Translations under genes and position numbers: made by a program
Source of the DNA: Puerhibacterium puerhi
GTDB lineage: Bacteria; Actinomycetota; Actinomycetes; Actinomycetales; Cellulomonadaceae
DNA: 64,000 nt
NCBI RefSeq assembly: GCF_009846865.1
Contig: NZ_WUWN01000016.1
Location: 1 to 64,000 of the forward strand
Direction of reading: 5' to 3'
Shown here: piece after piece, positions 47,744 through 63,212 of the stretch
Numbering within the stretch: position 1 is the stretch's first letter
How the letters are laid out: the number at the start of each line of letters is the position of its first letter
The notes under the pieces: generated by a model
Database searches by the model: none
What the model saw: the letters and a program-made list of their open reading frames with translations, nothing else
What the model was told of the DNA's origin: nothing

Positions 47744-48535
47744 GTGGTGAGCACTTCGACTCCTACCGCCCAGTGTGACCGCTGCGAGGCGGAAGGGTGC
47801 ATCTACCCAAGAGAGAAGACGTATGGCGAGGCGCGGCACTGCCTGTGCTGCGGCAAGAGCAACAGGAAGCTGACTCCGATGACGCACACCGAGGCCGAAA
47901 GGCTCACCATGACTGCCCACCTCACCCACGCCCAGGCCGCCGCCCGCGACACTCTGCGCGATCTCCTGCCGCCCGGGGCCACCGTCCGCGTCATCATCCG
48001 CCACGTCTCCGCCTCCGGCATGATGCGCACCATTTCGCCCGTCGTCGTTGTCGGCGACAGCGTGCGCGACCTCTCCGGCCTGGTCGCCCGCGCCGGGATC
48101 GGTTTCCGCGAGGACTCGAAGCGCTACGGCCTGCGCGTGGGCGGCGCGGGGATGGATATGGGCTTCCACCTGGTGTACTCCCTCTCGTCGGCGCTCTACC
48201 CCGACGGCTTCAAGTGCACCGGCCACCAGTACACGGAGACGCGCCGCAACGGCCGCCGCGTGCTCGGATGCCCGAGCAACGCCCACGCGAACCACTACGG
48301 CGCCATGGCGCGCGTATGGAACGAGACGCACCCCGACAAGCTCGCGGCCATGGATGACGCGGATTACCGGCGCTCCCTGCCGTCCCTCACGCCCGACGAG
48401 CGCAAGGCCGCCCAGCGCGAGCTGGAGAGCATCGTCGCCGAGCGACAGGCATGGATCGCCGCCCAGCCGAACTACCGCCGCGGCGTCCTCCACCGTGACG
48501 GCGGCTACGCGCTGCACTACGGCGGCGCCCTCTGA
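47744..48535 (+). CDS. Conserved phage/plasmid protein of unknown function
   Basis: 263 residues from GTG 47744, with GGAGG of a dispersed-motif copy 9 nt upstream. The N-terminal ~55 residues hold a Cys cluster (CDRCEAEGC, CLCCGK). The main part, beginning AHLTHAQAAARDTLRDLLPP, contains IIRHVSASGMMRTIS and GGAGMDMGFHLVYSLSSALY. This is characteristic of a family found in many phages and plasmids without known function. ATG 47910 is an alternative start that would omit the Cys cluster. Confidence 0.75.
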   Translation: MVSTSTPTAQCDRCEAEGCIYPREKTYGEARHCLCCGKSNRKLTPMTHTEAERLTMTAHLTHAQAAARDTLRDLLPPGATVRVIIRHVSASGMMRTISPVVVVGDSVRDLSGLVARAGIGFREDSKRYGLRVGGAGMDMGFHLVYSLSSALYPDGFKCTGHQYTETRRNGRRVLGCPSNAHANHYGAMARVWNETHPDKLAAMDDADYRRSLPSLTPDERKAAQRELESIVAERQAWIAAQPNYRRGVLHRDGGYALHYGGAL

Positions 48536-48636
48536 CGGTCGGCCCCGCCAGCGTGGCGGCCCGGCGCCGACGCCGGGACGTCGCGCGGGCAGTACCGCCC
48601 GCACCTCCGTACGCCTCACGAAAGAGAGCCGGACCC

Positions 48637-49638: not shown

Positions 49639-49640
49639 CC

Positions 49641-50264
49641 GTGGCGAACAAGACGCGTAACACGCTGGTTGCCCTGACGGTGGCTCTCGCCGCCGCGATC
49701 CCTACCGTGACGCTGGACCAGGCGCGCCGCGCTGACGCCCGGGACTACGCCATGACGCTGAGTGAGGCGACCGAGGCGCAGGCCCAGGCCGAGGCGCGCG
49801 CCGACAGGCTCGCCGCTGAGCTGGGTGAGGCCGAGGAGGTGAGCGCGGAGCACGCGCGGAAGGTCGCCGACCTGACTACCCGTGTGGACGCCCTGACGGG
49901 GCAGGTGGAGACGCTCACGACCGAGCGCGACAAGGCCAACGCTGCCGCGGCCGAGGCCGAGCGCCGGCGCGTGGAAGAGCCCGTGGTGCGTGAGGTCGTG
50001 AAGTGGAAGACGCGCACCGTGTCGGCGCCCGCCGACGACGTGGAGCGCTTCGAGGATGGCTCGTGGAAGAACCACACCACGGGCGAGACGGGATGCACGC
50101 CGGGTGAGCTGTGCGACGACTCGCCCACCAACCTGCCGCCGTGCGAGGTGGAGGACGGGAGCACCGGCCCGCTGCCGTGCTTCTGGAATGCCAAGGAGCA
50201 GGGCAACGGTGAGGGCCGGTCATTCTGGCTGGACGCGGCTCGCCAGACCCACTACGTGAAGTGA
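49641..50264 (+). CDS. Membrane-anchored or secreted coiled-coil protein
   Basis: 207 residues from GTG 49641, with GGGAGG upstream. A hydrophobic N-terminal segment (TLVALTVALAAAIPTVTL) precedes a coiled coil of about 90 residues and a Cys-containing C-terminal domain (GCTPGELCDDS, PPCEVEDG). It is probably exported and disulfide-bonded. The role is unknown. Confidence 0.7.
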   Translation: MANKTRNTLVALTVALAAAIPTVTLDQARRADARDYAMTLSEATEAQAQAEARADRLAAELGEAEEVSAEHARKVADLTTRVDALTGQVETLTTERDKANAAAAEAERRRVEEPVVREVVKWKTRTVSAPADDVERFEDGSWKNHTTGETGCTPGELCDDSPTNLPPCEVEDGSTGPLPCFWNAKEQGNGEGRSFWLDAARQTHYVK

Positions 50265-50282
50265 TATGGGAGGATCCCGCAC

Positions 50283-50486
50283 ATGGCGCAGAAGGTAGTG
50301 ACTTCCATCCTTGACGATATCGACGGTAGCGACGCCGCCGAGACGGTGCGCTTCGCGCTGGACGGAAAGGCGTACGAGATCGACCTCTCCGCTGCCCACG
50401 CAAAGAAGTTCCGCAAGAGCCTTGACCCCTACGTGAAGGCCGCGCGGAAGGTGCGCAAGACGCGGGGGAGGAATGGCCGTGGCTGA
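50283..50486 (+). CDS. Lsr2 dimerisation domain without DNA-binding domain
   Basis: 67 residues from ATG 50283, preceded by GGGAGG. MAQKVVTSILDDIDGSDAAE and TVRFALDGKAYEIDLSAAHA follow the Lsr2 N-terminal domain closely (beta hairpin and helix). Full Lsr2 proteins have about 110 residues with a C-terminal Arg-Gly-Arg DNA-binding domain. Here only KVRKTRGRNGRG remains. It could co-oligomerise with host Lsr2 and interfere with silencing, or bind DNA through the basic tail. Confidence 0.85.
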   Translation: MAQKVVTSILDDIDGSDAAETVRFALDGKAYEIDLSAAHAKKFRKSLDPYVKAARKVRKTRGRNGRG

Positions 50487-50733
50487 CGGAAGCGTCCCGG
50501 AGTTCCGGGCTGTCGTTGAGTGCACTTACGACCCGTGCACCTACTGCCATCGGCCGCGTCAACGTTATGCGGCGGATCATCCAAGCGGGCCCTTCGCCAC
50601 CGCCGAGCAGGCGCGAGAGCATGGCGAGGGGATCGCGCACAAGGTCTACGGATTCAGCGTGCACCGCGTGCTGATTGAGGCGCGCCAGGTGACACCGTGG
50701 GAGACGGTCAGCGTCGAGGTGGAGGCCGGGTGA
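50473..50733 (+). CDS. Small phage protein with Cys pairs
   Basis: 86 residues from ATG 50473, overlapping the Lsr2-like gene. ECTYDPCTYCHRPRQRY is a likely zinc knuckle, and an alpha/beta remainder follows. Unknown. Confidence 0.65.
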   Translation: MAVADGSVPEFRAVVECTYDPCTYCHRPRQRYAADHPSGPFATAEQAREHGEGIAHKVYGFSVHRVLIEARQVTPWETVSVEVEAG

Positions 50734-50993
50734 CGACGGAGGCGCAGCCGCTCGTGACCACGGACGCCTTCCAGAGCGTCCCCGATGACTGGCAGGCGCC
50801 CGCGCAGACGCGCAAGGGCGCCGGCTCAGGCAACAAGGCGCCCGCCCGGCGCAAGCGCTATGACGTGCTGAGCCGGGAGACAGGGCGCCTCATGTTCAGC
50901 ACAGACTCCGAGCTCGTGGCCCAGGCACCCCTTCCGGGTGAGGTGGTGTGGGACCGCGTGACGGGGCGTGCCTACTATGGCCCAACTGTGTAG
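50730..50993 (+). CDS. Small phage protein
   Basis: 87 residues from GTG 50730, overlapping the previous stop. A basic middle (KGAGSGNKAPARRKRYDVLS) is followed by a short beta domain. The end overlaps a dispersed-motif copy. Unknown. Confidence 0.6.
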   Translation: MTTEAQPLVTTDAFQSVPDDWQAPAQTRKGAGSGNKAPARRKRYDVLSRETGRLMFSTDSELVAQAPLPGEVVWDRVTGRAYYGPTV

Positions 50994-51015
50994 CCTTGCC
51001 GGGAGGTGTGAAGGT

Positions 51016-51180
51016 GTGAAGTACCTCATCAAGATTGACGACCACGACGTGGAGGAGACTCCTAGCGTCCCGTGGACCGCGAACATCTACTACGACGGTG
51101 ACCCCACGCCCATCTCGGTGGGCTTCGGGAACAGCCCTGGCAGCGCTGTGCGTGACGCGATGCGCGAGGTGGACTGGTGA
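51016..51180 (+). CDS. Small phage protein
   Basis: 54 residues from GTG 51016, just after a motif copy and GGGAGG. YLIKIDDHDVEETPSVPWTA looks like a small beta domain. Unknown. Confidence 0.6.
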   Translation: MKYLIKIDDHDVEETPSVPWTANIYYDGDPTPISVGFGNSPGSAVRDAMREVDW

Positions 51181-51389
51181 GCCGCAAGGACCCCCGCGCC
51201 GGCCTGACCGGCGACGAACGGCGCTGGTGCGTGCCCTACACGGTGAAGGGCGCACACCGAGGCTTCGGCACCCTGACGATCCGAGCCGCTGACGCGGCAG
51301 ACGCACTGAGGCGCGCTGAGCTGTGGCACGCGGAGTTACCCAAGCGGACGACCCGAGCCGTCGTCTACGGCGTACCTGTGGAGGCTTGA
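51177..51389 (+). CDS. Small phage protein
   Basis: 70 residues from GTG 51177, overlapping the previous stop. WCVPYTVKGAHRGFGTLTIR and AADAADALRRAELWHAELPK suggest an alpha/beta fold. The stop lies in a motif copy. Confidence 0.6.
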   Translation: MSRKDPRAGLTGDERRWCVPYTVKGAHRGFGTLTIRAADAADALRRAELWHAELPKRTTRAVVYGVPVEA

Positions 51390-51392
51390 CAC

Positions 51393-51767
51393 ATGACGTT
51401 CAAGGCTGGCGACACCGTGCGTTGGCGCGGGCATGGCGAGTACCGACCCTTCGGCGACGTGTTCGTCCTCCTGGACAAGGCGCCCGCCGTGCGGCGCTTC
51501 CTGACGCACAACGCGGCGCGGTGCGAGACGCCGGAGGGCACGGAGATTGGAAGCCACTTCGAGCGCAAGTGCGCCTCGTGGCACTGGCGCAACGGCTCGC
51601 ACCGCCTCGGTGGCGGGCAGGGGCAGGCGTGGTGGCTCCAGGACGCGCACACGGGCGCCGTGTCGCCTGACTACGTGGCACGGGAGTCCGAGCTGGAGCC
51701 GATGCTCACGTGGCAGGACACGGCGGCCATCAACCAGCTCTTCGATGACGAGAGGGAGGCGGCATGA
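51393..51767 (+). CDS. Unknown phage protein
   Basis: 124 residues from ATG 51393. GGAGG of the motif copy serves as ribosome binding site 8 nt upstream. It starts FKAGDTVRWRGHGEYRPFGD, an SH3-like strand pattern. Unknown function. Confidence 0.65.
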   Translation: MTFKAGDTVRWRGHGEYRPFGDVFVLLDKAPAVRRFLTHNAARCETPEGTEIGSHFERKCASWHWRNGSHRLGGGQGQAWWLQDAHTGAVSPDYVARESELEPMLTWQDTAAINQLFDDEREAA

Positions 51768-51907
51768 GTCGCATGGCTGAGCTGGCGATGGTCTGCGAGG
51801 GCTACGGCATCGACCCGCGCCGGCCTGACGCGCTGACGCTGGCGACGTTCGCCGCTGACGTCGAGGACGACCTGCACCGGCTCCCGGTGCGCGAGGGGGA
51901 GAAGTGA
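51764..51907 (+). CDS. Very small phage protein
   Basis: 47 residues from ATG 51764, with GAGGGAGG upstream and overlaps on both sides (ATGA, GTGA). Unknown. Confidence 0.6.
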   Translation: MSRMAELAMVCEGYGIDPRRPDALTLATFAADVEDDLHRLPVREGEK

Positions 51908-52079
51908 ATCGAGAGGCACTGATCACGGAGCTGAACACGACGCTCGTCGAGATGGGGAGCAACCGCTCCCGGAGTGGGAGACGGACCTATGGACCGACAA
52001 GTTCCTCTACGGCGTGAGCCGCGTCGTGCTGGCCGTGGCCGAGGCGCGAGACGCGGGGATTCACCTCGCGGCGGCCTGA
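51904..52079 (+). pseudogene. Small gene broken by a one-base deletion
   Basis: From GTG 51904 the frame reads NREALITELNTTLVEMG. At a run of four G (51,955-51,958) adding one G would continue EQPLPEWETDLWTDKFLYGV and SRVVLAVAEARDAGIHLAAA to the stop at 52,079. As given, length is 176 bp, one short of 59 codons. Either a real mutation or a homopolymer error. Confidence 0.65.
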
Positions 52080-52090
52080 CGCGAGAGGCC

Positions 52091-52165
52091 ATGCATGACG
52101 GCTGGTGCTCGGTCGCCGGCTGCACCAACCCTGACGTCTGGCACGAGCACAAGGAGAAGCGATGA
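52091..52165 (+). CDS. Tiny Cys/His protein
   Basis: 24 residues from ATG 52091, with GCGAGAGG before it. WCSVAGCTNPDVWHEH has the C-x5-C-x6-H-x-H spacing of a small zinc finger. It overlaps the next start (GATGAG). Confidence 0.5.
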   Translation: MHDGWCSVAGCTNPDVWHEHKEKR

Positions 52166-52443
52166 GCGAGCTTGACGCAATCCCCACGGAGGAGACGGTC
52201 CCCGTGGTCCTGGCGGTCCCGAACGGCCTGGAGCGTGACGGAGAGCCCCTCTACGTCCAGCGCGTGTTCGAGGTGACCACCACGACGCTCCTGGCGGTGC
52301 AGGCGCTCTTGGAGAACGGGATCACCGATGACGTCGGGATCAAGGTAGCGATGACCGCGATGGACATTGCCGGCTGTGGCGTGGAGCCGGGGCTGGCAGA
52401 GCAGATCGCTGCGCACCTGGCGGAGAAGGGGAGACTGGCATGA
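52162..52443 (+). CDS. Small acidic phage protein
   Basis: 93 residues. VPVVLAVPNGLERDGEPLYV, then helices to the end. GGAG lies upstream of ATG 52162. Unknown. Confidence 0.65.
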   Translation: MSELDAIPTEETVPVVLAVPNGLERDGEPLYVQRVFEVTTTTLLAVQALLENGITDDVGIKVAMTAMDIAGCGVEPGLAEQIAAHLAEKGRLA

Positions 52444-52805
52444 CGAGCGCCGCCCCCGAGGTGGAGTGGCGCATCGAGGGCACCTGGCTCGTGGAGGTCG
52501 CCAACGAGCACACGTGCGGCACTGGCCCGCATGGGCACTACGGCGCCCACGAGCCCGGCTGTGGCCTGGTGCCGATCCAAGACCTGTCGCAGCTCGACGG
52601 CTTCGCTGAGTTGCTGGAACGGGCGCGGGCGGATGGCGCCCGAGGGGCGCTGCTGAGTGCGAGGGCTGGACTGGAGCGGGCGATGCTCGGCACCACGGAC
52701 GGCGACCTCATCTCCCCCGACAGCGACGTGCCCGCGGGCGAGATGTACCGTCTGGCCGCCGAGCACATCGCCTCCCGCGCTGAGGCGGTGGCCGAGGGGC
52801 TATGA
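52440..52805 (+). CDS. Unknown phage protein
   Basis: 121 residues, overlapping both neighbours by 4 bp. A His/Cys-rich segment (EHTCGTGPHGHYGAHEPGCG) may bind metal; the second half is helical. Unknown. Confidence 0.65.
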   Translation: MTSAAPEVEWRIEGTWLVEVANEHTCGTGPHGHYGAHEPGCGLVPIQDLSQLDGFAELLERARADGARGALLSARAGLERAMLGTTDGDLISPDSDVPAGEMYRLAAEHIASRAEAVAEGL

Positions 52806-52906
52806 CTGACGTGGAGGCTCGCGCTCGTGAGCTCTACGCCTACTTCGCTGGCAAGATCGCCATTGAGGTGCTGGTGAGCGCAATCGAGCGCGGCCAGATC
52901 AAGTGA
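52802..52906 (+). CDS. Tiny helical protein
   Basis: 34 residues from ATG 52802 (overlapping TGA). EARARELYAYFAGKIAIEVL forms one long helix. Unknown. Confidence 0.5.
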   Translation: MTDVEARARELYAYFAGKIAIEVLVSAIERGQIK

Positions 52907-52951
52907 CGCTTCACCCGTGCCCGCCGGCGCTGACTCGCGTACCGTGCGGGC

Positions 52952-53140
52952 ATGGTCATTCACCGCATCGAGGACGACCGGCCCGATGACCGGAGGCGCG
53001 ACGTCGTCAACCGGCTGCCGCACGACCGCCGCGGGTGGCCCCTGTGGGCCAAGCTCACGGTGACATTCGTCGTCGGCGTGACGGCCATCGTCCTGTTCAT
53101 GGGCTGGGTCTCCCAGCTCAACGTGCAGTCGCCGTACTGA
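52952..53140 (+). CDS. Single-pass membrane protein
   Basis: 62 residues. A basic, charged N-terminal 30 residues precede one helix (LTVTFVVGVTAIVLFMGWV) and a short outside tail. Unknown; possibly lysogenic conversion. Confidence 0.65.
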   Translation: MVIHRIEDDRPDDRRRDVVNRLPHDRRGWPLWAKLTVTFVVGVTAIVLFMGWVSQLNVQSPY

Positions 53141-53182
53141 CCGGCGCCAGGGTGAAGTCTCTGGCGCCTTGTCGCGGTGTAG

Positions 53183-53222
53183 GTGTGGAGCCTTGACACG
53201 CAACATCAACATCGCCTAGACA
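53183..53222 (+). promoter_or_regulatory. Promoter-like element with dispersed motif
   Basis: GTGTGGAGCC leads into TTGACA (53,193-53,198). TAGACA (53,217-53,222) stands 18 bp further. The spacing and the spacer CAACATCG match the element at 18,201-18,230. TTG 53,193 also opens an 8-codon frame ending TAG, and two further short frames follow before 53,287. Confidence 0.6.
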
Positions 53223-53286
53223 TGACCCGGCAGGCGTCGGGAGAGAGGGACTGACCATGAACCTGACCACCCCGCGGAGGCGCTAG

Positions 53287-53532
53287 GTGAGCCGAGAGAA
53301 GACGTGGTTCGACCTGCGGCTGGAGTTCGAGTCGCGAGTGCGCGGTGATGCCCGAGAGGCGGAGATGCGCTCGCGCTTCAAGGCCGTGGACAAGACCGTG
53401 AACCCGCCCAAGCCTCACGACAGCGTGGACCTCGGCCCCCGATGCGAGTGGAGCGACCTCCACAAGAGCTCTTGCTGGCACTGCAAGGGCATCGACGACA
53501 ACGACTTTCCCATCGCCGAGGAGGCGGTCTAG
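53287..53532 (+). CDS. Small phage protein with Cys/His cluster
   Basis: 81 residues from GTG 53287, preceded by GGAGG. RCEWSDLHKSSCWHCKG is a likely zinc site. Unknown. Confidence 0.6.
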   Translation: MSREKTWFDLRLEFESRVRGDAREAEMRSRFKAVDKTVNPPKPHDSVDLGPRCEWSDLHKSSCWHCKGIDDNDFPIAEEAV

Positions 53533-54039
53533 ATGAAGACCAAGGCCCCCGTTTCTGCTGTCGAGTTCCCGGTGAGCGACCTTCCCGACGCGACCATCGA
53601 CACCGGGAACAGCTACAGCCAGACCAAGATCGTGCGCTTCCGTTCCATCACGCCGGCGCAGAGGGCGGAGACGCGAGAGGCGGCCATCAAGGCTGCTGAG
53701 CGCCACTACCAACTCGCGGAGGACCACATCGCCGCCGCCCTGTGGCTCCGGTACGACTACGAGCCCAAGCCCGAACCTCACTGGGAGGAGCGCGTCGAGA
53801 ACCTCGCCATCACACTGGTGAAGCCGGAGCCGCACCTGAGCACCGATGACTTCCATCAGGCCTCTATCAACTTCGAGCGCGAGTGGGGCGCCTGGCCGAA
53901 TGACCTCGCGTACTTCGGTCGCGACCCCTTCTGGAACATCGAGCACGGCAAGGTGCACTACCGCCACCACTTCGGCGGCAAGAAGGTGACGCGCGTGCTC
54001 GTGGACGCCGAGGGTAACTCCGTCGAGGACGAGGACTGA
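53533..54039 (+). CDS. Unknown phage protein
   Basis: 168 residues. The helix ETREAAIKAAERHYQLAEDH and the aromatic-rich end NIEHGKVHYRHHFGGKKVTR are distinctive. No family is recognised. Confidence 0.65.
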   Translation: MKTKAPVSAVEFPVSDLPDATIDTGNSYSQTKIVRFRSITPAQRAETREAAIKAAERHYQLAEDHIAAALWLRYDYEPKPEPHWEERVENLAITLVKPEPHLSTDDFHQASINFEREWGAWPNDLAYFGRDPFWNIEHGKVHYRHHFGGKKVTRVLVDAEGNSVEDED

Positions 54040-54040
54040 C

Positions 54041-54338
54041 ATGGAGTTCATCAAGCTCACGTTCACCGAGGGTGGCGCCTTCTACGTCCGCCCCGAACTC
54101 ATCCACACCGTCGGCGAGGTGGTTCCCGAAGAGCCTCGCCCGATCTTCCCCGGCAAGGTCGAGAAGGCGCCCGAGCCGTACACCGTGATCGACGTCCACG
54201 GGCACCGCCGGTACGTCAAGGAGTCCGTGGACGTCGGTCCTGAGCCTCATCGACTCGTGGGCGCTGGCCGCGCTGGGCGAGTCCATCGACACCTTCAACG
54301 AGGGCGACATCACCACGCGAGTACGTGTGGAGCCTTGA
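54041..54338 (+). pseudogene. FlbD-like small protein with a one-base insertion
   Basis: From ATG 54041 it reads EFIKLTFTEGGAFYVRPELI, then YTVIDVHGHRRYVKESVDV, the pattern of FlbD-like proteins (F-Y-x-N/R-P-x-L-I ... V-K-E-S-V-x-x-V). Near 54,234-54,238 one extra base shifts the frame. Removing it continues VLSLIDSWALAALGESIDTF to a stop at 54,338. The length of 298 bp is one over 99 codons. Its stop falls in a motif copy. Confidence 0.6.
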
Positions 54339-54339
54339 C

Positions 54340-54456
54340 GTGGAAGCCCTCGGGCTCCTGTTCATCGTCGGTCCCTTCGCCGCCGTGTGGCTCTGGGCGA
54401 AGGCAGCACAGCACATCGACCGGCGCCGAGAGCGCCGATGGGAGGACAGCGCATGA
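54340..54456 (+). CDS. Tiny membrane protein
   Basis: 38 residues from GTG 54340, directly after a motif copy whose GGAG is 6 nt upstream. LGLLFIVGPFAAVWLWAKAA is one membrane helix, followed by a basic tail RRRERRWED. It overlaps the RNA ligase start (ATGA). Confidence 0.6.
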   Translation: MEALGLLFIVGPFAAVWLWAKAAQHIDRRRERRWEDSA

Positions 54457-55772
54457 CCTTTGAGCTCCGCGGCAACCCCAACTACGCCGCGATGATCCAC
54501 GAGTACGACCCGGCCAACGAGGTCGTGCTCCCGAACCGCGACCGCGTGGTCGGCTACAAGGTGCTCGGCTACCAGAGCATCGTCCAGAAGGGTGCGTATC
54601 AGGCGGGTGAGCTGGTCGTCGTGTTCGGCGCCGGTACCCAGGTGTCCGAGGACTACGCCTGGTACAACGACCTGTACCGCCACGAGCACCTCAACGGGAG
54701 GCCGGGAGCCAAGGGCTACCTGGAGGACAACCGCCGGGTGAAGGCGATCAAGTTCGGCGGACACCGCTCCGACGCTCTGGTGATGCCACTGGCGTCGCTC
54801 GCATGGTTCGCTCCGAAGGGCGGCCTGCCTGAGCTCGTGGAGAACGCCAAGCCCGGCCTCGCCTTCGACCATGTGAACGGCGAGGAGATCAGCCGGAAGT
54901 ACCTGCTGCCGGTCAAGCGCGACGGGCGTTCGCTTGCCACGAAGCAGGGTCAGAAGCGTGTGCGCGTGACCACGGAGATGTTCCCCGAGCACTTCGACAC
55001 GCCCAACGGCTTCCGCGTGGGCGACACGCTGTTCCAGCCCGGAGACCACGTGGTGGTTACTCAGAAGCTCCACGGCACCAGCGTCCGCCTCGGGCGCGTG
55101 CCGGTGCTGCGGGATCTCAAGTGGTACGAGCGCCTGGCCCAGCGCCTCGGGGTGAAGGTGCAGACGCACGAGCACGGCGTCGTCGTGGGCTCGCGCCGGG
55201 TCACCAAGTCGATCAACGGTGAGGCCGAGGCCGGCAAGCAGCACTTCTACGCCGACGACCTGTGGACCGAGGTCACGCGCCCGATGCACGCCCTCATCCC
55301 CGAGGGCTTCCTGGTCTTCGCCGAGATCGTCGGCTGGACGCCGGACGGTGCGCCGATCCAGAAGGACTACACCTACGACGTCCCGCGCGGTGAGGCGCAC
55401 GTCTACGTCTACCGCGTGGCGACGATCAACGGTGAGGGCGACGTCGTGGACCTGCCCTGGCGCGCCGTGGAGCGCTTCTGCGAGGCCCGCGGGTGGAAGC
55501 ACGTGCCGGTCCTCACCTCCGGCTATTGGCACGACAGCCGCCCCGAGATCGACGTCCTGATGGACGAGCGCTACGCAGACATGGGGCTCCCGGCGATCCC
55601 GCTGTCGGACCCGAAGCTGCCGGACGAGGGAGTAGTCGTCCGCGCGGACACGGGCTTCACGCCGACCGTGGCGAAGTACAAGTCGCCGGCGTTCCTGCGG
55701 CACGAGGACGTCGTACTGGACCAGGGCGAGGCGGACGTCGAGTCCGTCGAGGACGTGGAGGTGGCCGCGTGA
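54453..55772 (+). CDS. RNA ligase (Rnl5/DraRnl-like)
   Basis: 439 residues from ATG 54453, preceded by GGGAGG; the earlier GTG 54387 is in the preceding gene. An N-terminal OB-like domain (VVGYKVLGYQSIVQKGAYQA) resembles Deinococcus RNA ligase. The nucleotidyltransferase motifs are VVTQKLHGTSVRLG (motif I, Lys nucleophile), FLVFAEIVGW (IIIa), DEGVVVRAD (IV) and VAKYKSPAFL (V). It joins RNA ends after repair. The kinase-phosphatase two genes downstream supplies 5'-P/3'-OH ends. Confidence 0.9.
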   Translation: MTFELRGNPNYAAMIHEYDPANEVVLPNRDRVVGYKVLGYQSIVQKGAYQAGELVVVFGAGTQVSEDYAWYNDLYRHEHLNGRPGAKGYLEDNRRVKAIKFGGHRSDALVMPLASLAWFAPKGGLPELVENAKPGLAFDHVNGEEISRKYLLPVKRDGRSLATKQGQKRVRVTTEMFPEHFDTPNGFRVGDTLFQPGDHVVVTQKLHGTSVRLGRVPVLRDLKWYERLAQRLGVKVQTHEHGVVVGSRRVTKSINGEAEAGKQHFYADDLWTEVTRPMHALIPEGFLVFAEIVGWTPDGAPIQKDYTYDVPRGEAHVYVYRVATINGEGDVVDLPWRAVERFCEARGWKHVPVLTSGYWHDSRPEIDVLMDERYADMGLPAIPLSDPKLPDEGVVVRADTGFTPTVAKYKSPAFLRHEDVVLDQGEADVESVEDVEVAA

Positions 55773-56209
55773 GCGAGCATCGCTACTTCCAGTCCAACAT
55801 CACGCGGACGATATACCAGGACACCAGCGCGGTTGCCGGGCCCGAGTGGTTCGCGAGGAACCCCGACTTCACCGAGGTCCAGGTGGTTCCGGTGGACGCC
55901 ATCGTGATCCGCCGCGAGGAGCTGCCTGAGGTGAAGGCGCACTCCTCGATCCCGAACAGCGTCGAGGCCGGTGATGCCTTCCTCCGATTCGACGGCCTGA
56001 ACGATCCGCGCGAGCACGCCGAGTCGCGACTCCGGGACTGGGCTGCCATCGCGGCCCATCTCCGCGAGCACCCGCCCGTGGACGAGGCGCAGGTGAAGGC
56101 GGTGACGCAGGCGCTCTACGAGGCGACAGAGGACCCCTTCGACATCGACGTGCCAGACGTCGCCCGCCGGCTGGTGGAGCGCGGTGTCCGTGTGGGCGAG
56201 GGGGCGTAG
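55769..56209 (+). CDS. Unknown phage protein
   Basis: 146 residues from GTG 55769, overlapping the ligase stop. FTEVQVVPVDAIVIRREELP, then ALYEATEDPFDIDVPDVARR near the end. Unknown; it sits within the RNA-repair segment. Confidence 0.65.
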   Translation: MSEHRYFQSNITRTIYQDTSAVAGPEWFARNPDFTEVQVVPVDAIVIRREELPEVKAHSSIPNSVEAGDAFLRFDGLNDPREHAESRLRDWAAIAAHLREHPPVDEAQVKAVTQALYEATEDPFDIDVPDVARRLVERGVRVGEGA

Positions 56210-56406
56210 TGAGCCGGATCAAGGTGCGGCGCACGACGCGCCAGTGCCCCAACCGCTGCGGCGACGAGTATCACTGGGTCGCCCACTACGAGCATGACCG
56301 CTGGCGCCCTGAGCGCTGGCTCTGGACCGACAACCACCGAGTCGCGCTGGAGGGCGCCCTCACTCATCTGGTGCCCTCTCAACTAGCAGAAAGTGTGGAG
56401 CCTTGA
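56209..56406 (+). CDS. Small basic phage protein
   Basis: 65 residues from GTG 56209. A Cys pair (RQCPNRCGDEYHW) and many Arg/Trp. Its stop lies in the motif copy that also contains the next start. Confidence 0.6.
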   Translation: MSRIKVRRTTRQCPNRCGDEYHWVAHYEHDRWRPERWLWTDNHRVALEGALTHLVPSQLAESVEP

Positions 56407-57341
56407 CGACACTAAAGGATCAGCTCGTCATCTGCCGCGGCTATCCCGCGAGCGGCAAGAGCACCAAGGCGCTGTCCTGGGTGGACTCGGCGCCCGAGGC
56501 CCGAGCCCGGGTCAACCGGGACGAGCTCCGCATGGCCCTGTACGGCAAGTACACGGGCCTGAGCAACGACCAGGAGCGCGCGGTCACGTTCGCCCAGGTG
56601 GCGTCCGTGACGGCACTCCTGCGGGCGGGGAAGAGCGTCGTCGTGGACGACACCAACCTGCGCGCCAAGAACGCTCGCGACTGGGTGGACATCGCCGAGC
56701 GCGAGGGTGCTCAGTGGGCCATCTGGGACTTCGAGACGCCCGTCGAGGAGTGCATCGACCGGGACCGACGCCGCTCGGCCCGAGGTGGGCGCTCGGTGGG
56801 GGAGAAGGTCATCCGGGACTTCGCCAAGCGCTACCCGCTGGGGCGCTGGCCGGAGATCAAGCCGACCCCGCGCCGGCACGACGACCCGCCGGCCAAGTAC
56901 GAGCCGGACGAGAGCAAGCCCCCGGCGATCATCGTCGACCTCGACGGGACGCTGGCGCACAACGTCACCGGGCGCGAGTTCTTCGGCAAGGGCCTGGAGC
57001 GCGTCTACGAGGACGACGTCGACCCGAACGTCAACTTCGTCGTCAACGCGTTCTTCGGGGACGCGGAGGTCATCTTCATGTCTGGCCGCAACGAGTCGGC
57101 AAGGGACGAGACCGAGCGCTGGCTCACGGAGAAGGCCGACTGGTGGCCAGACGAGTACCGGCTCTTCATGCGGGCGGACGGCGACTACCGGCCCGACTTC
57201 ATCGTCAAGGCGGAGCTGTTCGACAAGCACGTCCGCCACGAGTTCAACGTCAAGCTCGCGCTCGACGACCGGGACCAGGTCGTCAACCTCTGGCGGGGAA
57301 TGGGAATCCCCTGCTGGCAGGTCGCGCCGGGCGCTTTCTGA
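56403..57341 (+). CDS. Polynucleotide kinase / 3'-phosphatase (T4 Pnkp-like)
   Basis: 312 residues from TTG 56403, which lies inside a motif copy; no other start fits. The N-terminal P-loop kinase is CRGYPASGKSTKA, with RVNRDELRMALYG and VVVDDTNLRAKNARDW (as in T4 Pnkp). The C-terminal HAD phosphatase is IIVDLDGTLAHN, IFMSGRNES and KLALDDRDQVVNLWR. It heals broken RNA ends (5'-OH kinase, 2',3'-phosphate removal) for the ligase. Confidence 0.9.
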   Translation: MTTLKDQLVICRGYPASGKSTKALSWVDSAPEARARVNRDELRMALYGKYTGLSNDQERAVTFAQVASVTALLRAGKSVVVDDTNLRAKNARDWVDIAEREGAQWAIWDFETPVEECIDRDRRRSARGGRSVGEKVIRDFAKRYPLGRWPEIKPTPRRHDDPPAKYEPDESKPPAIIVDLDGTLAHNVTGREFFGKGLERVYEDDVDPNVNFVVNAFFGDAEVIFMSGRNESARDETERWLTEKADWWPDEYRLFMRADGDYRPDFIVKAELFDKHVRHEFNVKLALDDRDQVVNLWRGMGIPCWQVAPGAF

Positions 57342-57350
57342 GGAGGGGCA

Positions 57351-57845
57351 ATGACCACTACCACGCTGAACGTCATCGACGTCTTCCCGCTGGGCGTAGG
57401 CGTCGCCATCCCGAAGCTCGACCCCGAGGCCAAGGAGAAGTGGCTCAAGGCGCTTCGCTCGGGTGAGTACGTGCAGGCCAAGAACAAGCTCAACGACGGT
57501 GCCGGTGGCTTCTGCTGCCTTGGGGTCCTCTGCGACATCTCGGGGCGAGGCGAGTTCCGCGCCACCTCGGGGCAGGACTACTTCACGTTCGTCGACAGCG
57601 ACGGCCACTCCGACTACAACATGCCCATCATCCTCGTGGAGCGATGGGCGTACGGCATCAGTGTCCTGTCGCAGTGGCAGGTGCCCATGCCCGTCGAGGT
57701 GGTGCAGCGCCGCCACGGGGATGAGGAGGTGCAGCGCCGCCTTCGGCTCGGGTTCCACGAAGGGGGCGTTGAGCTCAACGAGCTCAACGACACCTACGAC
57801 CTCACCTTCGAGGAGATCGCCGACGTCATCGAAATCCACCTGTGA
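57351..57845 (+). CDS. Phage protein, paralogue A
   Basis: 164 residues, with GGAGGGG before ATG 57351. KLDPEAKEKWLKALRSGEYV, FCCLGVLCDIS and the end LNDTYDLTFEEIADVIE are shared with the gene at 58,276. The two are duplicates separated by an HNH gene. Such CCLGVLCD proteins occur widely in phages; function unknown. Confidence 0.8.
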   Translation: MTTTTLNVIDVFPLGVGVAIPKLDPEAKEKWLKALRSGEYVQAKNKLNDGAGGFCCLGVLCDISGRGEFRATSGQDYFTFVDSDGHSDYNMPIILVERWAYGISVLSQWQVPMPVEVVQRRHGDEEVQRRLRLGFHEGGVELNELNDTYDLTFEEIADVIEIHL

Positions 57846-58279
57846 TGGACACCCGGTTCTGGAAGAAGGTCGAGCCAACGGGCTTCTGCTGGAACTGGGC
57901 GGCGGGGCGAGATCGTGACGGATACGGCCGCTTCGGGCTGAACCGCGTAAGCGTTCTCGCCCACCGAGTCGCTTACGAGGCGCTCGTGGGTCCGATCCCG
58001 GCCGGGCACCATCTTGACCACCTGTGCCGCAACAAGACCTGCGTGAACCCGGACCATCTGGAGCCGGTCACGGCGGCCGAGAATATGCGTCGGCGGAACG
58101 CCATTCTCACGCACTGCAAGAACGGTCACGCCCTAGAGGGGAGCAACCTCAAGGTTGATCGCCGCGGCCATCGCTACTGCCGCGCGTGCGGATCGAACAA
58201 CGCGCGACGATATAGAAGGAGAATGGCTGGCGCCATGCGCAACCCAAATTCTGAGACGAAGGCATTGGAGTACCTGTGA
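57845..58279 (+). CDS. HNH homing-type endonuclease
   Basis: 144 residues from ATG 57845 (TGATG overlap). The order is RFWKKVEPTGFCWNWAAGRD, LAHRVAYEALVGPIPAG, HHLDHLCRNKTCVNPDHLEP (HNH core) and CKNGH with CRACGS (zinc). Its location between two paralogous genes suggests insertion as a selfish element. Confidence 0.9.
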   Translation: MDTRFWKKVEPTGFCWNWAAGRDRDGYGRFGLNRVSVLAHRVAYEALVGPIPAGHHLDHLCRNKTCVNPDHLEPVTAAENMRRRNAILTHCKNGHALEGSNLKVDRRGHRYCRACGSNNARRYRRRMAGAMRNPNSETKALEYL

Positions 58280-58701
58280 CCGACACTCTCAAGCTCGACC
58301 CGGCGGTCAAGGAGGAGTGGCTGGAGGCCCTCCGCTCCGGGAAGTACAAGCAGGCCCGCTCGGCTCTGCACGACACCCGAACCGATAGCTACTGCTGCCT
58401 CGGCGTTCTTTGTGACATCGCAGCGAAGCACGGTGTCGGCGGGTGGGACACGAAGAGGCCGGCCGGGGACAAGCTCGTGTACGTCGACCCCGACGGCATG
58501 GTGGGTTACGGCTTCCCGCCCGAGGGGGTCGTGGACTGGGCGCACGGCGGCTATCGGCCGACTGAGGAGGAGCCCGAGCCCTTCGGCGTGCCCGCCCCCA
58601 GCCCCGACGCCGACGGCACGTTCGTCAACCTCTGGGAGCTCAACGACAACTACGGCTTCACGTTTGAGCAGATCGCCGACGTGATCGAGAAGAACCTGTA
58701 G
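58276..58701 (+). CDS. Phage protein, paralogue B
   Basis: 141 residues from GTG 58276. KLDPAVKEEWLEALRSGKYK, YCCLGVLCDIA and LNDNYGFTFEQIADVIEKNL mirror paralogue A. The middle is shorter and more acidic. Confidence 0.8.
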   Translation: MTDTLKLDPAVKEEWLEALRSGKYKQARSALHDTRTDSYCCLGVLCDIAAKHGVGGWDTKRPAGDKLVYVDPDGMVGYGFPPEGVVDWAHGGYRPTEEEPEPFGVPAPSPDADGTFVNLWELNDNYGFTFEQIADVIEKNL

Positions 58702-58703
58702 CC

Positions 58704-58970
58704 ATGCTCGATGTCGAAGAGCGCGAAGACGTCGACATCAACCTCGGCGAACAGATCCCTTGCGACTGGGCATGGTCCGAATGCCGCGAGGATGTCTCCT
58801 TCATTGGGCGGACGAGTTGCTGCGGTCGCGAGTTCTTCGCATGCGCCGGCCACAAAGCGCTCGCCGACGAATGGAAGCGCCTCATTGGCTCGATCAGCCC
58901 GGTGCTGTGCGCGCACTGCAAGCGGCTGAGCCGTCCCGGCGAATTCCACTACAAGTGGAGGGCGATCTAG
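58704..58970 (+). CDS. Cys-rich zinc-binding protein
   Basis: 88 residues. Cysteines at CDWAWSEC, TSCCGREFFACAGH and LCAHCK suggest two zinc sites. Unknown. Confidence 0.7.
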   Translation: MLDVEEREDVDINLGEQIPCDWAWSECREDVSFIGRTSCCGREFFACAGHKALADEWKRLIGSISPVLCAHCKRLSRPGEFHYKWRAI

Positions 58971-59122
58971 TGGCCAAGGAGGATTCCGGTCCCAAGTCGG
59001 ACGTGTGGGCGAACAACGTCGTCACCGCGGCCAAGGAGGCTTACAAGAAGAACCGCCCGCCCAAGCTCACCAACGAGCAGCGGGTCCACCTCAAGACGCT
59101 TCTGGGAGCGGCTAATGAGTGA
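58970..59122 (+). CDS. Small basic phage protein
   Basis: 50 residues from GTG 58970, overlapping TAG. AAKEAYKKNRPPKLTNEQRV is basic and helical. Unknown. Confidence 0.55.
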   Translation: MAKEDSGPKSDVWANNVVTAAKEAYKKNRPPKLTNEQRVHLKTLLGAANE

Positions 59123-59276
59123 AGAGATTGCAGGCAAGCTCCACTTCAAGGGAGACCTGCGCGAGCGCCAGTTCGGCATCGCCGGCCCTGCCACCAACGG
59201 CGCGATGTTCGAGGCCGTGATGACCGAGTACGACGAGGACCGCGACATCACGACGGTCTTCTACCGCGAGTTCTAG
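59115..59276 (+). CDS. Small phage protein
   Basis: 53 residues from ATG 59115, overlapping the previous gene. Beta-rich (KLHFKGDLRERQFGIAGPAT). Unknown. Confidence 0.55.
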   Translation: MSEEIAGKLHFKGDLRERQFGIAGPATNGAMFEAVMTEYDEDRDITTVFYREF

Positions 59277-59294
59277 TCCCACGGGAGGGGATGC

Positions 59295-59900
59295 ATGAAG
59301 AAGAAGATCATCGGCGCTCTCGGCGCCGCCGCCCTGGTGTTCGCCCTCGCAGCCTGCGAGGAGGGCACTGCCTCAGACAAGGCCTACGACGAGATCGCCA
59401 AGGAGGCGAGCGGTCGGCAGCCCTACAAGCCTCAGAACGACGTCGAGTACAACAACTACAACAAGGCCCAGGAGCTCTACGACGACCCGTCGTCGATCAT
59501 CTGGTGCACGACCACGTGGGGCAACGCCTCCGCGCCTCTCGTCACCGTGCCCGTCGCCGGCAAGCTCACCTCGTCGTCGGTGTCCTACTTCCCGAACTAC
59601 TCGCCCAAGTGGTCGAACAACAACGGTGGCCTCCTGGTCGAGAACCGCTCCGTGGACGGCATGTACCACGGCAACCCGCCCGGCTACCGCTACGGCTTCA
59701 CGCCCGGTGGTCAGTATGTCGACTTTTTCAACATGCCGACCGTCTGCACCACGGCCCTGACGGAGTTCCAGCGCCAGTCGACGGAGGTCTCGATCTCCAA
59801 CGACGACGTCGCCGCTCAGCTCCAGCAGCGCGCCGAGGACGCCCTCAAGGCGGGCAACGCGGACGAGGCCCAGAAGATCCTTGAGGAGGTCGCCAAGTGA
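59295..59900 (+). CDS. Prophage lipoprotein
   Basis: 201 residues, with GGGAGGGG before ATG 59295. The signal peptide KKKIIGALGAAALVFALAAC ends in a lipobox (LAAC), so it should be lipidated and exposed outside. The mature part is rich in Asn, Tyr and Ser, with SIIWCTTTWGNASAPLVTVP. A helical C-terminus is DALKAGNADEAQKILEEVAK. It may act in superinfection exclusion or host surface change. Confidence 0.85.
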   Translation: MKKKIIGALGAAALVFALAACEEGTASDKAYDEIAKEASGRQPYKPQNDVEYNNYNKAQELYDDPSSIIWCTTTWGNASAPLVTVPVAGKLTSSSVSYFPNYSPKWSNNNGGLLVENRSVDGMYHGNPPGYRYGFTPGGQYVDFFNMPTVCTTALTEFQRQSTEVSISNDDVAAQLQQRAEDALKAGNADEAQKILEEVAK

Positions 59901-60217
59901 CGGCACGCATCGTCGCGATCCGGGATGACGGATCGCAGGCGGACGTCACCGAGGGTGTGCAGATCGCCTACGACCTCCTTCGCCAGTCCCTCGACTGGGG
60001 CTCCGGCTTCCTCGACACCCAGGAGGTCGACGCCGTGATCCGCCTGTCCGAGGCGTGCGACTTCCCTGACTTTGAGCAGCTCATCGCTGAGGTCTGGCGC
60101 AAGCGGTACGCGGACAGCATCCCCTACGAGGAGCGTTACACCACGCGAATCCCGAGCCAGCCCACGACAGAGCAGCGCGAGGCGTTCCTCGCGGGCATCC
60201 GAAAGGAGAGCGCATGA
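59897..60217 (+). CDS. Unknown phage protein
   Basis: 106 residues from GTG 59897. RIVAIRDDGSQADVTEGVQI, then helices with LIAEVWRKRYADSIPYEERY. Unknown. Confidence 0.65.
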   Translation: MTARIVAIRDDGSQADVTEGVQIAYDLLRQSLDWGSGFLDTQEVDAVIRLSEACDFPDFEQLIAEVWRKRYADSIPYEERYTTRIPSQPTTEQREAFLAGIRKESA

Positions 60218-60636
60218 AGCGACTCATCTGGAGCGCCATCGGCATCTTCGTTGCCATCGCGGTAGGCGGCACGCTCCTGGGCTTCGGCCTGGGGTGGTTC
60301 AACCGCGGCGTCGAGGTCGTCAGCCCGACGAACGTCACGGAGCAGCACCGCCAGGTGATCGGCAAGTACGAGGCGATGCAGGCCGCGGCCAACAACGCGT
60401 GCTCGGCCCAGCGCTCGGAGTCCAGCGAGGACGGCCCGACCCTCGTGGAGGGTCCCGAGCTCGCCTACGCGGCCACCGTCCGGTCCATCGCCGCCGACTA
60501 CAACCGCCGCATGGAGAACCTCTTCGAGGCGAAGCTCGTGGCGCCGGCCGGCTACCCGGACGAGGCGCCGTTCATCGACCAGGGGCCGGACACCGACTGG
60601 TGCGCCGTGGCCGCAGACCTGGCGGTGTACCCGTGA
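60214..60636 (+). CDS. Membrane-anchored phage protein
   Basis: 140 residues. One N-terminal helix (LIWSAIGIFVAIAVGGTLLG) and an outside domain with two Cys and helices around VIGKYEAMQAAANNACSAQR. A common type in actinophage accessory arms; role unknown. Confidence 0.75.
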   Translation: MKRLIWSAIGIFVAIAVGGTLLGFGLGWFNRGVEVVSPTNVTEQHRQVIGKYEAMQAAANNACSAQRSESSEDGPTLVEGPELAYAATVRSIAADYNRRMENLFEAKLVAPAGYPDEAPFIDQGPDTDWCAVAADLAVYP

Positions 60637-60830
60637 GCGCGCTCGGCCTGGTGCTTGGCATCGCGCTGGCGCTTGGAGTGGTGTTGCTTGCGCTCGGCGC
60701 CATCTCGATGGAGTGGCTTGACGTCAACCCCCAGGCCCTGTTCCCTCCCGTGTCTGCCATCACGGGCTTCGTCATCCTGGTTGCCGTGGCGCTGGTCTCG
60801 GCAATCACCGGCACCAAGGTTGGAGGTTGA
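60633..60830 (+). CDS. Two-helix membrane protein
   Basis: 65 residues from GTG 60633. Two hydrophobic helices (LGLVLGIALALGVVLLALGA and SAITGFVILVAVALVSAITG). Could be a second holin or exclusion protein. Confidence 0.7.
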   Translation: MSALGLVLGIALALGVVLLALGAISMEWLDVNPQALFPPVSAITGFVILVAVALVSAITGTKVGG

Positions 60831-60834
60831 TGAG

Positions 60835-61278
60835 TTGACCAACCGCACCATCACCATCGAGCACAACGGCAAGACCTACACCGGCCACATCGGCACGATC
60901 AAGAGCACCTCGCTCGGCATGGAGGGGCACGGGGTCTGGGTCGCCTTCCTCCACACCGAGTGGCTGGGCGGGGGCGTCGGGGTCGGCGGCTACGTCCTCG
61001 ACACTCCGCAGGAGGCGGCCGAGGACGAGCACAAGCGTCGCATCGGCACGGCGTTCGGCATGGACCACGTCATGCAGATCGTCGAGACCGTCGGCGTCGA
61101 CACGTGGGAGCAGCTCACGGGTCGCCAGGTCATCGTCCTGTTCGAGGGCGACGGCGGCTGGGGGGCTCAGTCGAAGGGCATCGCCGGCCTTGTCAACGAC
61201 AAGGTGTTGATCCTTGACGAGCACGCCCAGGCGTGGCGCGACGGCGAGTTCAAGGCTCGCGAGAAGGAGAGCGCATGA
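60835..61278 (+). CDS. Unknown phage protein
   Basis: 147 residues from TTG 60835, with GGAGG upstream. ITIEHNGKTYTGHIGTIKST and GVWVAFLHTEWLGGGVGVGG are typical of a widespread actinophage family without known function. Confidence 0.7.
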   Translation: MTNRTITIEHNGKTYTGHIGTIKSTSLGMEGHGVWVAFLHTEWLGGGVGVGGYVLDTPQEAAEDEHKRRIGTAFGMDHVMQIVETVGVDTWEQLTGRQVIVLFEGDGGWGAQSKGIAGLVNDKVLILDEHAQAWRDGEFKAREKESA

Positions 61279-61487
61279 CCGCAGAGACCGAGAACCTGAC
61301 CCAGCACGTCGAACTCGCGGGGGAGCGGGACGCTGGCGGAACCGTCGTCGTGCGCATCCTGGCGAGCGAGGATGTCGACACCTTCGAGGCGCTTCTCACG
61401 GCGCTCAACATGGTGTCGCCTGAGCGGCTGGCACCCACGCTGATGGAGCTGGACCCTATTCGCTTCGCCGAGGCGGTGGGGGAGTGA
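61275..61487 (+). CDS. Small acidic phage protein
   Basis: 70 residues from ATG 61275, overlapping the previous stop. Mixed alpha/beta. Unknown; close enough to the integrase to be considered an accessory candidate. Confidence 0.6.
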   Translation: MTAETENLTQHVELAGERDAGGTVVVRILASEDVDTFEALLTALNMVSPERLAPTLMELDPIRFAEAVGE

Positions 61488-61714
61488 GCGGCCTAGCAAA
61501 GGTCATGCTCGACCAGACGGAGAAGGCCCGGCTCATCCACAAGCTCTCGGGCTTCGACGACCACGAGCTCGTCCTCATGCGCGCCGGCGACGTCCGGGCG
61601 CTCCTGACGTTGATCACGGCCCTGGCGACTCCGGAGCCAATCGCGCTCTCGCGCGAGGAGGCGGACCGGTTCGAGATCAACGTGAAGGCGGATCGGTCGG
61701 GGCGTTCCATCTAG
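61484..61714 (+). CDS. Small phage protein, last of the right arm
   Basis: 76 residues from GTG 61484. Helical (KARLIHKLSGFDDHELVLMR). Unknown. Confidence 0.6.
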   Translation: MSGLAKVMLDQTEKARLIHKLSGFDDHELVLMRAGDVRALLTLITALATPEPIALSREEADRFEINVKADRSGRSI

Positions 61715-61726
61715 CAGCACCACACG

Positions 61727-61786
61727 GGCGGGGACCGCCCTTCCTAGACGCTCACGCAGCGTCCGGGGAGGCGGTCCCCGCCTTTT
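61727..61786 (+). terminator. Strong terminator between right arm and integrase
   Basis: A 13-bp stem pairs GGCGGGGACCGCC (61,727-61,739) with GGCGGTCCCCGCC (61,770-61,782), followed by TTTT. The integrase stop codon lies in its loop. Confidence 0.9.
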
Positions 61787-63176
61787 CGTGTTTCCAGGCC
61801 CACTGCACTCGCTCGATGCCCTGCACCCCAGGCTTGAGCTCGATGTCGAGGAGCCACCTGATCACCGCGCGCTTGCGCTCCAGGTCCAGCCCCTCCCACA
61901 TCTGCGCGGCGTTCGGAGCGCCGGCCAGCCCATCGAGAGCGTGGCCGCCCGCAAAGGTGCTCAGGCGGGCCTCCACGGCCTCCAGGCTCTCGCGGGCACG
62001 AGCGGTGCCAGCCACCATCTGTTCGCGCGTCAGAAGGCCTTCTGCGTAGTCCACGGCGAGACCGTTCAGGCGCTCCTCCAGGAACGCCTTCTTCGCCCGC
62101 AGCTCGTCCACCTCGGCGTTCTTCTCGCCCGTGTGCAGGAGGTCGGCGCTGTCTGGGTCGGAGAGGAACTCCACCACGAGCGTCGAGACGTAGGCGTCCA
62201 GGTCGGGACGCTTGATCAGGGTGCATCCCTTCCCCTGGCAGCGGTAGATGTCCGTGCTGCGGTTGGAGCGTGCGCGGTAGGTCACGTGCGAGCCGCACTT
62301 GCCACAGCGGACGATGCCTGACAGTAGGTAGATCGGCTTCGGCCCAGGCTTGTTGGGCATGCGCCTGGAGCGGACTATCGACAGGTAGGCCTCTTGCTCG
62401 TCAACGGTGACGATGGCCGGCCACTGGGCATCGCCGACGATGCTCCCGTTGTACTTCCGTCGACCCGAGATCCGCGGGTTGCTCAGCACCCATCGGACGG
62501 ACGTGGCCGTCCACTCCGCGTCGCGCTCCTTGGCGTCCTCCTTGCGGAGGTACTCGTGCCGGGCGCTGCGGATCCCGAGGTCGTTCCAGTGGCGGGCGAT
62601 GGCGCCCGTGCTCACGCCGGCCAGCACGTCCTTCATCGCCTGTCGGATCAGCTCCGCCTCGGACTCGCGCACGGTCATCTGGTCGTGCTCATAGCCGAAG
62701 GGGCGGAAGCCGGGGGTGGGGCGCCCTTGCCCTGCCCTCTGCTCCCAGGCGGCCCGCTGGCGCTCAGCCTTGCGCTCCACCTCAGCGCGCGCGACGGCGG
62801 CCAGGATGCGGGCGATCATGCGCCCGGTGTCGGTGGTCAGGTCGATGTCGCCCGTGGCCGTCGCGATGGCGACGTTGTGCTTCTCGGCCAGGTCGATGAT
62901 CCGCTCAAGATCCTTCATCGAGCGGGTCAGTCGGTCCAGCGCCCAGGCGACCACGACATCCACCTGGTCCGTCTCGATGGCGTGCAGGACCCGCTCCCAG
63001 CCGGGGCGCTTCTTCTTCCCGTACGCTGAGATCGAGTTGTCTTCCTCGATGCCGACAAGGGTCCACTCCCGGGACTCGGCGAGGGCGCGAATGGCGCGAG
63101 CCTGCCGATCAACGGCCAGCCCCTCGCCCGTCGAGTCGAGGGAGGCGCGTGTGTAGCCCAGTGCTCGGATGACCAT
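61752..63176 (-). CDS. int: Large serine integrase
   Basis: 474 residues from ATG 63176. The catalytic domain starts RALGYTRASLDSTGEG, with the nucleophile Ser12. It has DVVVAWALDRLTRSMKDLER and TDTGRMIARILAAVARAEVE. The recombinase domain begins RPTPGFRPFGYE. A zinc ribbon (GIVRCGKCGSHVTYR, YRCQGKGC) and a coiled coil (ELRAKKAFLEERLNGL) follow. It integrated the phage at the adjacent attR. The same frame runs on to 63,980, but that part is antisense host sequence. No clear Shine-Dalgarno is visible. Confidence 0.95.
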   Translation of the reverse strand: MVIRALGYTRASLDSTGEGLAVDRQARAIRALAESREWTLVGIEEDNSISAYGKKKRPGWERVLHAIETDQVDVVVAWALDRLTRSMKDLERIIDLAEKHNVAIATATGDIDLTTDTGRMIARILAAVARAEVERKAERQRAAWEQRAGQGRPTPGFRPFGYEHDQMTVRESEAELIRQAMKDVLAGVSTGAIARHWNDLGIRSARHEYLRKEDAKERDAEWTATSVRWVLSNPRISGRRKYNGSIVGDAQWPAIVTVDEQEAYLSIVRSRRMPNKPGPKPIYLLSGIVRCGKCGSHVTYRARSNRSTDIYRCQGKGCTLIKRPDLDAYVSTLVVEFLSDPDSADLLHTGEKNAEVDELRAKKAFLEERLNGLAVDYAEGLLTREQMVAGTARARESLEAVEARLSTFAGGHALDGLAGAPNAAQMWEGLDLERKRAVIRWLLDIELKPGVQGIERVQWAWKHEKAGTASPDAA

Positions 63177-63178
63177 GT

Positions 63179-63205: not shown

Positions 63206-63212
63206 CCTCCAC

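Follow-up and report, generated by a model that had tools for sequence, protein, structure and literature searches.

A candidate RNA-repair cassette, RNA ligase plus polynucleotide kinase-phosphatase, in a prophage of Puerhibacterium puerhi

The window analyzed here is a 64,000-nucleotide stretch of the Puerhibacterium puerhi genome (contig NZ_WUWN01000016.1, positions 1 to 64,000), in which a prophage carries a gene cassette for an RNA ligase and a T4-type polynucleotide kinase-phosphatase (Pnkp). The cassette is read as a two-step phage RNA-repair module, most likely restoring host RNA that host nucleases have cut; judged from the sequence, the probability of this reading was put at roughly 60%. 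Pnkp would strip the 3'-phosphate or cyclic phosphate and phosphorylate the 5'-OH, leaving 3'-OH and 5'-phosphate ends. The ligase would adenylate itself on K205, hand the adenosine monophosphate to the 5'-phosphate, and join the RNA ends. The repaired host RNA, tRNA foremost, would keep phage translation running during infection. From sequence comparisons, we infer enzymatic activity, an RNA rather than a DNA substrate, tRNA as the target, and a counter-defence purpose. Pairs of Pnkp and RNA ligase are already known in related phages, and the counter-defence idea has been published for some of them.

The cassette and its two enzymes

Four genes on the forward strand make up the cassette. The RNA ligase (54453..55772, 439 amino acids [aa], ATG start) has an N-terminal OB-like domain and a PF09414 nucleotidyltransferase domain, with motif I, KLHG, at K205. 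It is followed by two small genes of unknown function, P0002 (55769..56209, 146 aa), the start of which overlaps the ligase stop, and P0003 (56209..56406, 65 aa), found in this prophage only. Pnkp (56403..57341, 312 aa), a P-loop kinase followed by a HAD phosphatase, starts with TTG at 56403, overlapping the stop of P0003. As start and stop codons overlap from gene to gene (GTGA at 55769, a single base at 56209, and TTGA at 56403), the four genes are probably carried on one transcript and translated in succession.

The first-pass annotation, made from the letters of the window, had described an RNA ligase and Pnkp cassette with all nucleotidyltransferase motifs and both Pnkp halves. Both genes were indeed intact and complete in motifs and profiles, as seen in the invariant ligase residues and in the HAD_PNKP and AAA_33 matches given below. 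Its further suggestion, that the small genes at 55769 and 56209 may be partners, was not borne out, as neither keeps conserved company with the ligase across phages. Searches of phage records, of viral contigs, and of the 94 ligase loci besides the window's own gave no relative of P0003. P0002 had no relative in phage records; it had relatives in four other viral contigs, and the ligase was found in none of them, in a search run without a positive control. Both were rejected as conserved partners.

The ligase matched PF09414 RNA_ligase (1.1e-15, 58.6 bits, cut-off 27) and, over its full length, the phrog_968 RNA ligase family (6.4e-87, profile positions 5-397 of 398). In an alignment of 52 sequences, comprising the window protein and relatives from viral contigs and genome contigs, K205, H207, G208, T209, E291, Y320, E392, G393, K408, and K410 were invariant, as were G294 and Y308; the first ten mark the ligase motifs I, III, IIIa, IV, and V. 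The structure was predicted from the alignment with a mean pLDDT of 91.6. When it was compared to solved structures with Foldseek, 13 Naegleria gruberi RNA ligase entries led the list (E 4.4e-14 to 4.1e-13). The same entries (5cot and the 6vt series, Rnl5 type) reached Z 24.5-26.0 over 309-314 residues in VIA-align, OB domain included, and the alignment ran between residues 6 and 422 of the ligase. The Naegleria enzyme thus shares the OB and nucleotidyltransferase domains over most of the length, but it is 17-19% identical to the window ligase, about 100 residues shorter, and has KLDG at motif I instead of the KLHG of the window ligase family. T4 Rnl2 scored Z 16.2 (residues 172-417 of the ligase), and below it stood RNA editing ligase 1, archaeal ligases, and the T4 Rnl1 entries (Z 12.6-14.0).

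A phmmer search of solved structures gave nothing at E up to 0.01 with the full-length ligase, and a chance match only with the nucleotidyltransferase part alone. The OB domain was recovered from sequence too by a profile of 14 ligase relatives, and 13 of them matched TIGR02306 in the N-terminal part at E up to 0.01, and 11 matched the PF21189 OB fold. The window ligase itself scored 30.6 bits against TIGR02306, best over profile positions 14-98 of 341. Because the cut-off is 151.15 and motif I reads KLHG, the protein was kept out of that family. On the predicted model, the ligase architecture is thus of the Rnl5 type, OB plus nucleotidyltransferase, and the protein is not a member of the curated TIGR02306 (DRB0094) family. 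The model PF09511, to which the T4 tRNA-Lys repair ligase Rnl1 is assigned in an excerpt of PMC4599027, was not matched by the window ligase at E up to 0.1, nor was it among the families that the 14 relatives matched at 0.01.

In the chromosomes of relatives, the ligase was found in 1 of the 99 genomes searched, the window's own, and it is thus not a host core gene. On genome contigs, the single-protein query confirmed no ligase relative, and the alignment query gave 15 loci. Some ligase genes are interrupted. In Mycobacterium phage Bobby (L014, 4001-6403), the ligase carries an intein (Hint, LAGLIDADG_2) directly after the KLHG of motif I. In three loci from actinobacterial genomes, the ligase gene is broken up by a LAGLIDADG-like open reading frame that is read in a different frame (L120:6665-7156, L121:6666-7262, and L123:6684-7157; Pfam below cut-off). 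The breaks lie at two different sites, a candidate start codon is present in every case for the part that follows, and by sequence these genes look split by homing endonucleases. No Rfam intron was found at cut-off.

Pnkp matched HAD_PNKP (1.3e-42), AAA_33 (8.3e-22), and phrog_505 (2.1e-88), as well as, almost end to end, 4xrp 'Pnkp1' (1e-36) and T4 Pnkp (1ltq, 9.8e-31), its homologue in the T4 tRNA-Lys repair pair. The P-loop, NRD..R, DDTN, DLDGT, SGR, and LDDR stretches aligned opposite their T4 counterparts. By these alignments, the protein is a Pnkp of the T4 type, with an N-terminal P-loop kinase, a C-terminal HAD phosphatase, and the T4 catalytic stretches kept. The ligase of Bacillus phage vB_BcoS-136 has as its neighbour a fusion of a kinase with an HD domain (L013:6214-7230), the HD domain replacing the HAD phosphatase.

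Pairing of ligase and Pnkp across phages

The pairing was surveyed in 95 ligase loci, which include several near-duplicates (e.g. L040 / L112 and L035 / L113); the viral contigs with the ligase were the best-scoring 80 of 204. With tblastn at E below 1e-5, Pnkp was detected in the fetched flanks of 66 of the 95 loci, the window's own included, and always on the ligase strand. Leaving the own locus aside, 41 of these loci had Pnkp upstream of the ligase and 24 had it downstream; in 16 of the 65, the two genes were no more than 150 base pairs (bp) apart. As Pnkp stands on either side, the linkage outlives gene order. Whole records were then searched for 28 of the 29 flank-negative loci, with L112 omitted (length and match as L040). 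Among these, Pnkp matches with E below 1e-70 turned up outside the flanks in 13 of the 21 viral contigs, and the seven bacterial genomes had strong matches (three), weak or partial ones only (three), or none (one). Altogether, both genes were found in 72 of the 80 viral contigs, the window's own among them, against a base rate of 2136 records with a Pnkp match among 50,697 phage records. The pairing of ligase and Pnkp is not due to chance. Among 15 whole ligase records, own included, phrog_505 was present in 14, in one of them over the kinase half only, and SRB7757 had none. tRNA genes were found in 13 of the same 15 records (13 of 14 without the own record); the two lacking one were this prophage and phage Bobby.

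Among the matches listed, mycobacteriophages of clusters J, E, and L (Omega gp136/gp162, Thresher gp90/gp94, LeBron gp74/gp85) share the ligase family at 41-47% identity and the Pnkp family at about 43%. Pnkp lies upstream of the ligase in Thresher, LeBron, and Optimus but downstream in this prophage. The closest named record among the matches listed was Stenotrophomonas virus Jojan60 (ligase 49%, Pnkp 47%), in which the two genes are adjacent and in the same order as here. Jojan60 has four tRNA matches and no annotated gene between ligase and Pnkp, whereas this prophage has two small genes there. The Pnkp of Omega and Cjw1 was reportedly the subject of work by Zhu and others in 2004. The surveyed titles and abstract starts held no biochemistry of this phage ligase family, which is weak evidence of absence, since subscription papers fall mostly outside such a survey.

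For clusters J, E, and L, an RNA-repair role that counters RNA-cleaving host defence was proposed in the accessible part of PMC3706429, where Omega gp136/gp162 are taken together with phage tRNAs. According to the same part, these clusters carry at least one tRNA gene, whereas this prophage has none above cut-off, and the triad is incomplete here. An excerpt of PMC7302621 gives the same RNA-repair reading for Microbacterium cluster ED, and one of PMC7824862 reports that jumbo phages have RNA ligases alongside kinase-HAD proteins. Overexpression of LeBron gp85, a ligase of the same family as the window's, was highly toxic to M. smegmatis, and that of gp74, the Pnkp, mildly so (PMC13148394, in excerpt), which suggests that these ligase and Pnkp families have an effect inside the cell. 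LeBron and Octobien14 (L009, L010) also have, close to the ligase or Pnkp, genes whose annotations are phosphoribosyl pyrophosphate transferase and nicotinate ribosyltransferase, possibly for salvage of nicotinamide adenine dinucleotide.

Prophage, host, and tRNA-like folds

The prophage with the cassette spans 8667..63212 (54,546 bp) and lies inside a gene for an FMN-dependent dehydrogenase, with the 8-base core ACCTTCCT. The left and right flanks matched positions 1-165 and 201-349 of the Pfam FMN_dh profile, and fusing them at the core restored a single open frame of 448 aa, from which the prophage limits were set. One prophage end carries a large serine integrase (61752..63176, reverse strand; Resolvase, Recombinase, Zn ribbon). 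In a PHROGs scan of 10 prophage proteins, eight belonged to terminase, head, tail, recombination, replication, methyltransferase, or integrase families and the remaining two to families of unknown function. A 55,359-bp IMG/VR contig encodes a ligase identical to the window's and is apparently the same prophage. The host genome comprises 3.9 Mb, with the window on its contig 8. Four WhiB genes in it point to an actinobacterial host; among 14 control genomes, only Corynebacterium glutamicum was positive for WhiB. The words 'actinobacterial prophage' of the first-pass annotation are therefore sustained, by the WhiB genes on the one hand and by the serine integrase, the phage families, and the host gene split at the 8-base core on the other. 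PADLOC matched no known defence family among eight prophage proteins, and a search of the host genome for RNA-cutting proteins gave one PIN (VapC-like) protein.

The cassette lies in the rightward arm of the prophage. Immediately downstream of it, two phrog_18067 paralogues with 40% identity (57351-57845 and 58276-58701) enclose an HNH endonuclease gene (57842-58279). At the extreme left end of the prophage, a glutaredoxin-like gene (8763-8999) adjoins the attachment core. By eye, the intergenic stretch 45040-45270 is apparently rich in CTAG-like words, and GCGC-rich short repeats occur at about 45680-45990.

Two predicted tRNA-like folds were located on the forward strand, both with an acceptor stem and a T-arm. 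In the first (46442..46508), a central hairpin whose loop has 3 bases replaces the anticodon arm; in the second (46945..47010), the central hairpin has a stem of 8 bp and a 7-base loop. A descriptor requiring a paired T-arm with a TTCRANY loop, closed by an acceptor stem of 6-7 bp, gave two sites in the window, whereas 30 first-order random sequences averaged 0.03. ARAGORN made a single call on the two folds, tRNA-Arg(acg) at 46920-47010, and the Rfam tRNA model matched neither. Against tRNA-Sec, the second fold scored 24.4 bits, under the cut-off of 47. On the folding model, its 7-base-loop arm could be a strongly altered anticodon arm, and both folds may be degenerate tRNAs or other non-coding RNAs. 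No Rfam family was found at cut-off in the entire window, and none of the 50 tRNA matches of the host genome lies on the window's contig. No phage DNA similar to 46080-47060 was found. A group I intron or an intron-bearing tRNA at 46.1-46.5 kilobases (kb) was considered and rejected, with no Rfam support and a fold z-score of -1.69.

Comparable elements were seen near other ligase genes. In the 41 loci scanned, ARAGORN calls without a 3-base anticodon occurred at L034:1561-1635, L053:2231-2324, and L118:13037-13138. A stricter descriptor gave 45 matches in 105 records (random mean 0.67), three of them without an ARAGORN call (L039:10634-10690, L046:10665-10731, and L074:10099-10168). L034 has the closest ligase (68% in the alignment) and a normal tRNA-Phe.

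Repair of host RNA and its alternatives

The first-pass annotation had likened the cassette to the T4 pair that repairs tRNAs cut by host anticodon nucleases. This likeness stood in part: a healing and sealing set does travel together, mostly with tRNA genes, and such a reading has been published; the ligase, however, is not of the Rnl1 class, and a search of the host genome gave no PrrC-like protein. Several observations weigh against the repair of host RNA. T4 Rnl1 is a sealing enzyme of a different class, and the window ligase does not belong to that class, which T4 uses on tRNA-Lys; sealing of anticodon loops is therefore something that we only infer. The prophage has no tRNA gene (RF00005) above the Rfam cut-off, and the search of the host genome for PrrC-like AAA_13 proteins came up empty. 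Among the 80 viral contigs, seven lacked a Pnkp match, five of them of at most 31 kb and two of 86 and 90 kb; another contig had a 24-residue match at its end only. The pairwise distances of ligase and Pnkp correlated (r 0.89, n 62 loci, shared descent uncontrolled), and shared descent alone could yield this correlation.

The best-surviving alternative, held tentatively and well behind the repair of cut host RNA, is that the breaks mended by the pair are nicks in base-paired RNA (stems of tRNA, ribosomal RNA helices, transfer-messenger RNA) and not cuts in open anticodon loops, since the ligase is built like nick-sealing enzymes of the Rnl5 type. Rnl5-type enzymes seal 3'-OH/5'-phosphate nicks in duplexes with RNA on the 3'-OH side. 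The two-domain fold match to the Naegleria ligase, for which the PDB title of 5cot says nick-sealing, argues for such a role, as do the N-terminal TIGR02306 and PF21189 matches of the relatives. The case is weakened by the difference in motif I between the two enzymes and by the score of the window ligase far below the TIGR02306 cut-off. A more elaborate proposal, which we consider improbable, takes the ligase family as a combination of an Rnl5-type OB module and a KxHG active site that, together with Pnkp, would mend nicks in folded RNA unsuited to T4-type Rnl1; in this prophage, it would work with the two tRNA-like RNAs, which retain acceptor and T-arm beside an abnormal anticodon arm, as uncuttable decoys or processed partners.

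It is quite unlikely that the ligase matures phage RNA, such as tRNA precursors processed by ribozymes or nucleases, and does not repair damage. The accessible part of PMC10879173 reports 'RNA ligase, DRB0094 family' in 54.5% of theta-ribozyme phage genomes, a 140-fold enrichment, and its authors suggest that the family takes part in the aminoacylation or maturation of tRNA rather than in ligation. The tRNA-like folds of this prophage agree with maturation. However, HDV-like ribozyme families were unmatched both in the window (gathering cut-off) and in 44800-61700 (E up to 1), the prophage lacks an above-cut-off tRNA gene to mature, and the pairing with Pnkp suits damaged ends. Least probable of all is the repair of DNA ends or nicks in phage replication: T4 Pnkp also acts on DNA, but at the thresholds used the families that the ligase matched were of RNA ligases and none of DNA ligases, and its top structural matches were RNA ligases, with DNA ligase entries at Z of 11.7 or less in VIA-align apart from the 'putative' 3qwu (14.7).

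If the cassette repairs host RNA, as preferred here, the known phage RNA-repair module would be extended to a prophage without a recognizable tRNA gene. The actinophage ligase of this pair is, by its predicted fold, of the OB plus nucleotidyltransferase kind, which corrects the class of the ligase. That class in turn predicts which breaks are sealed, nicks in duplexes or cuts in anticodon loops, and may thus bear on the host nucleases that these phages meet.

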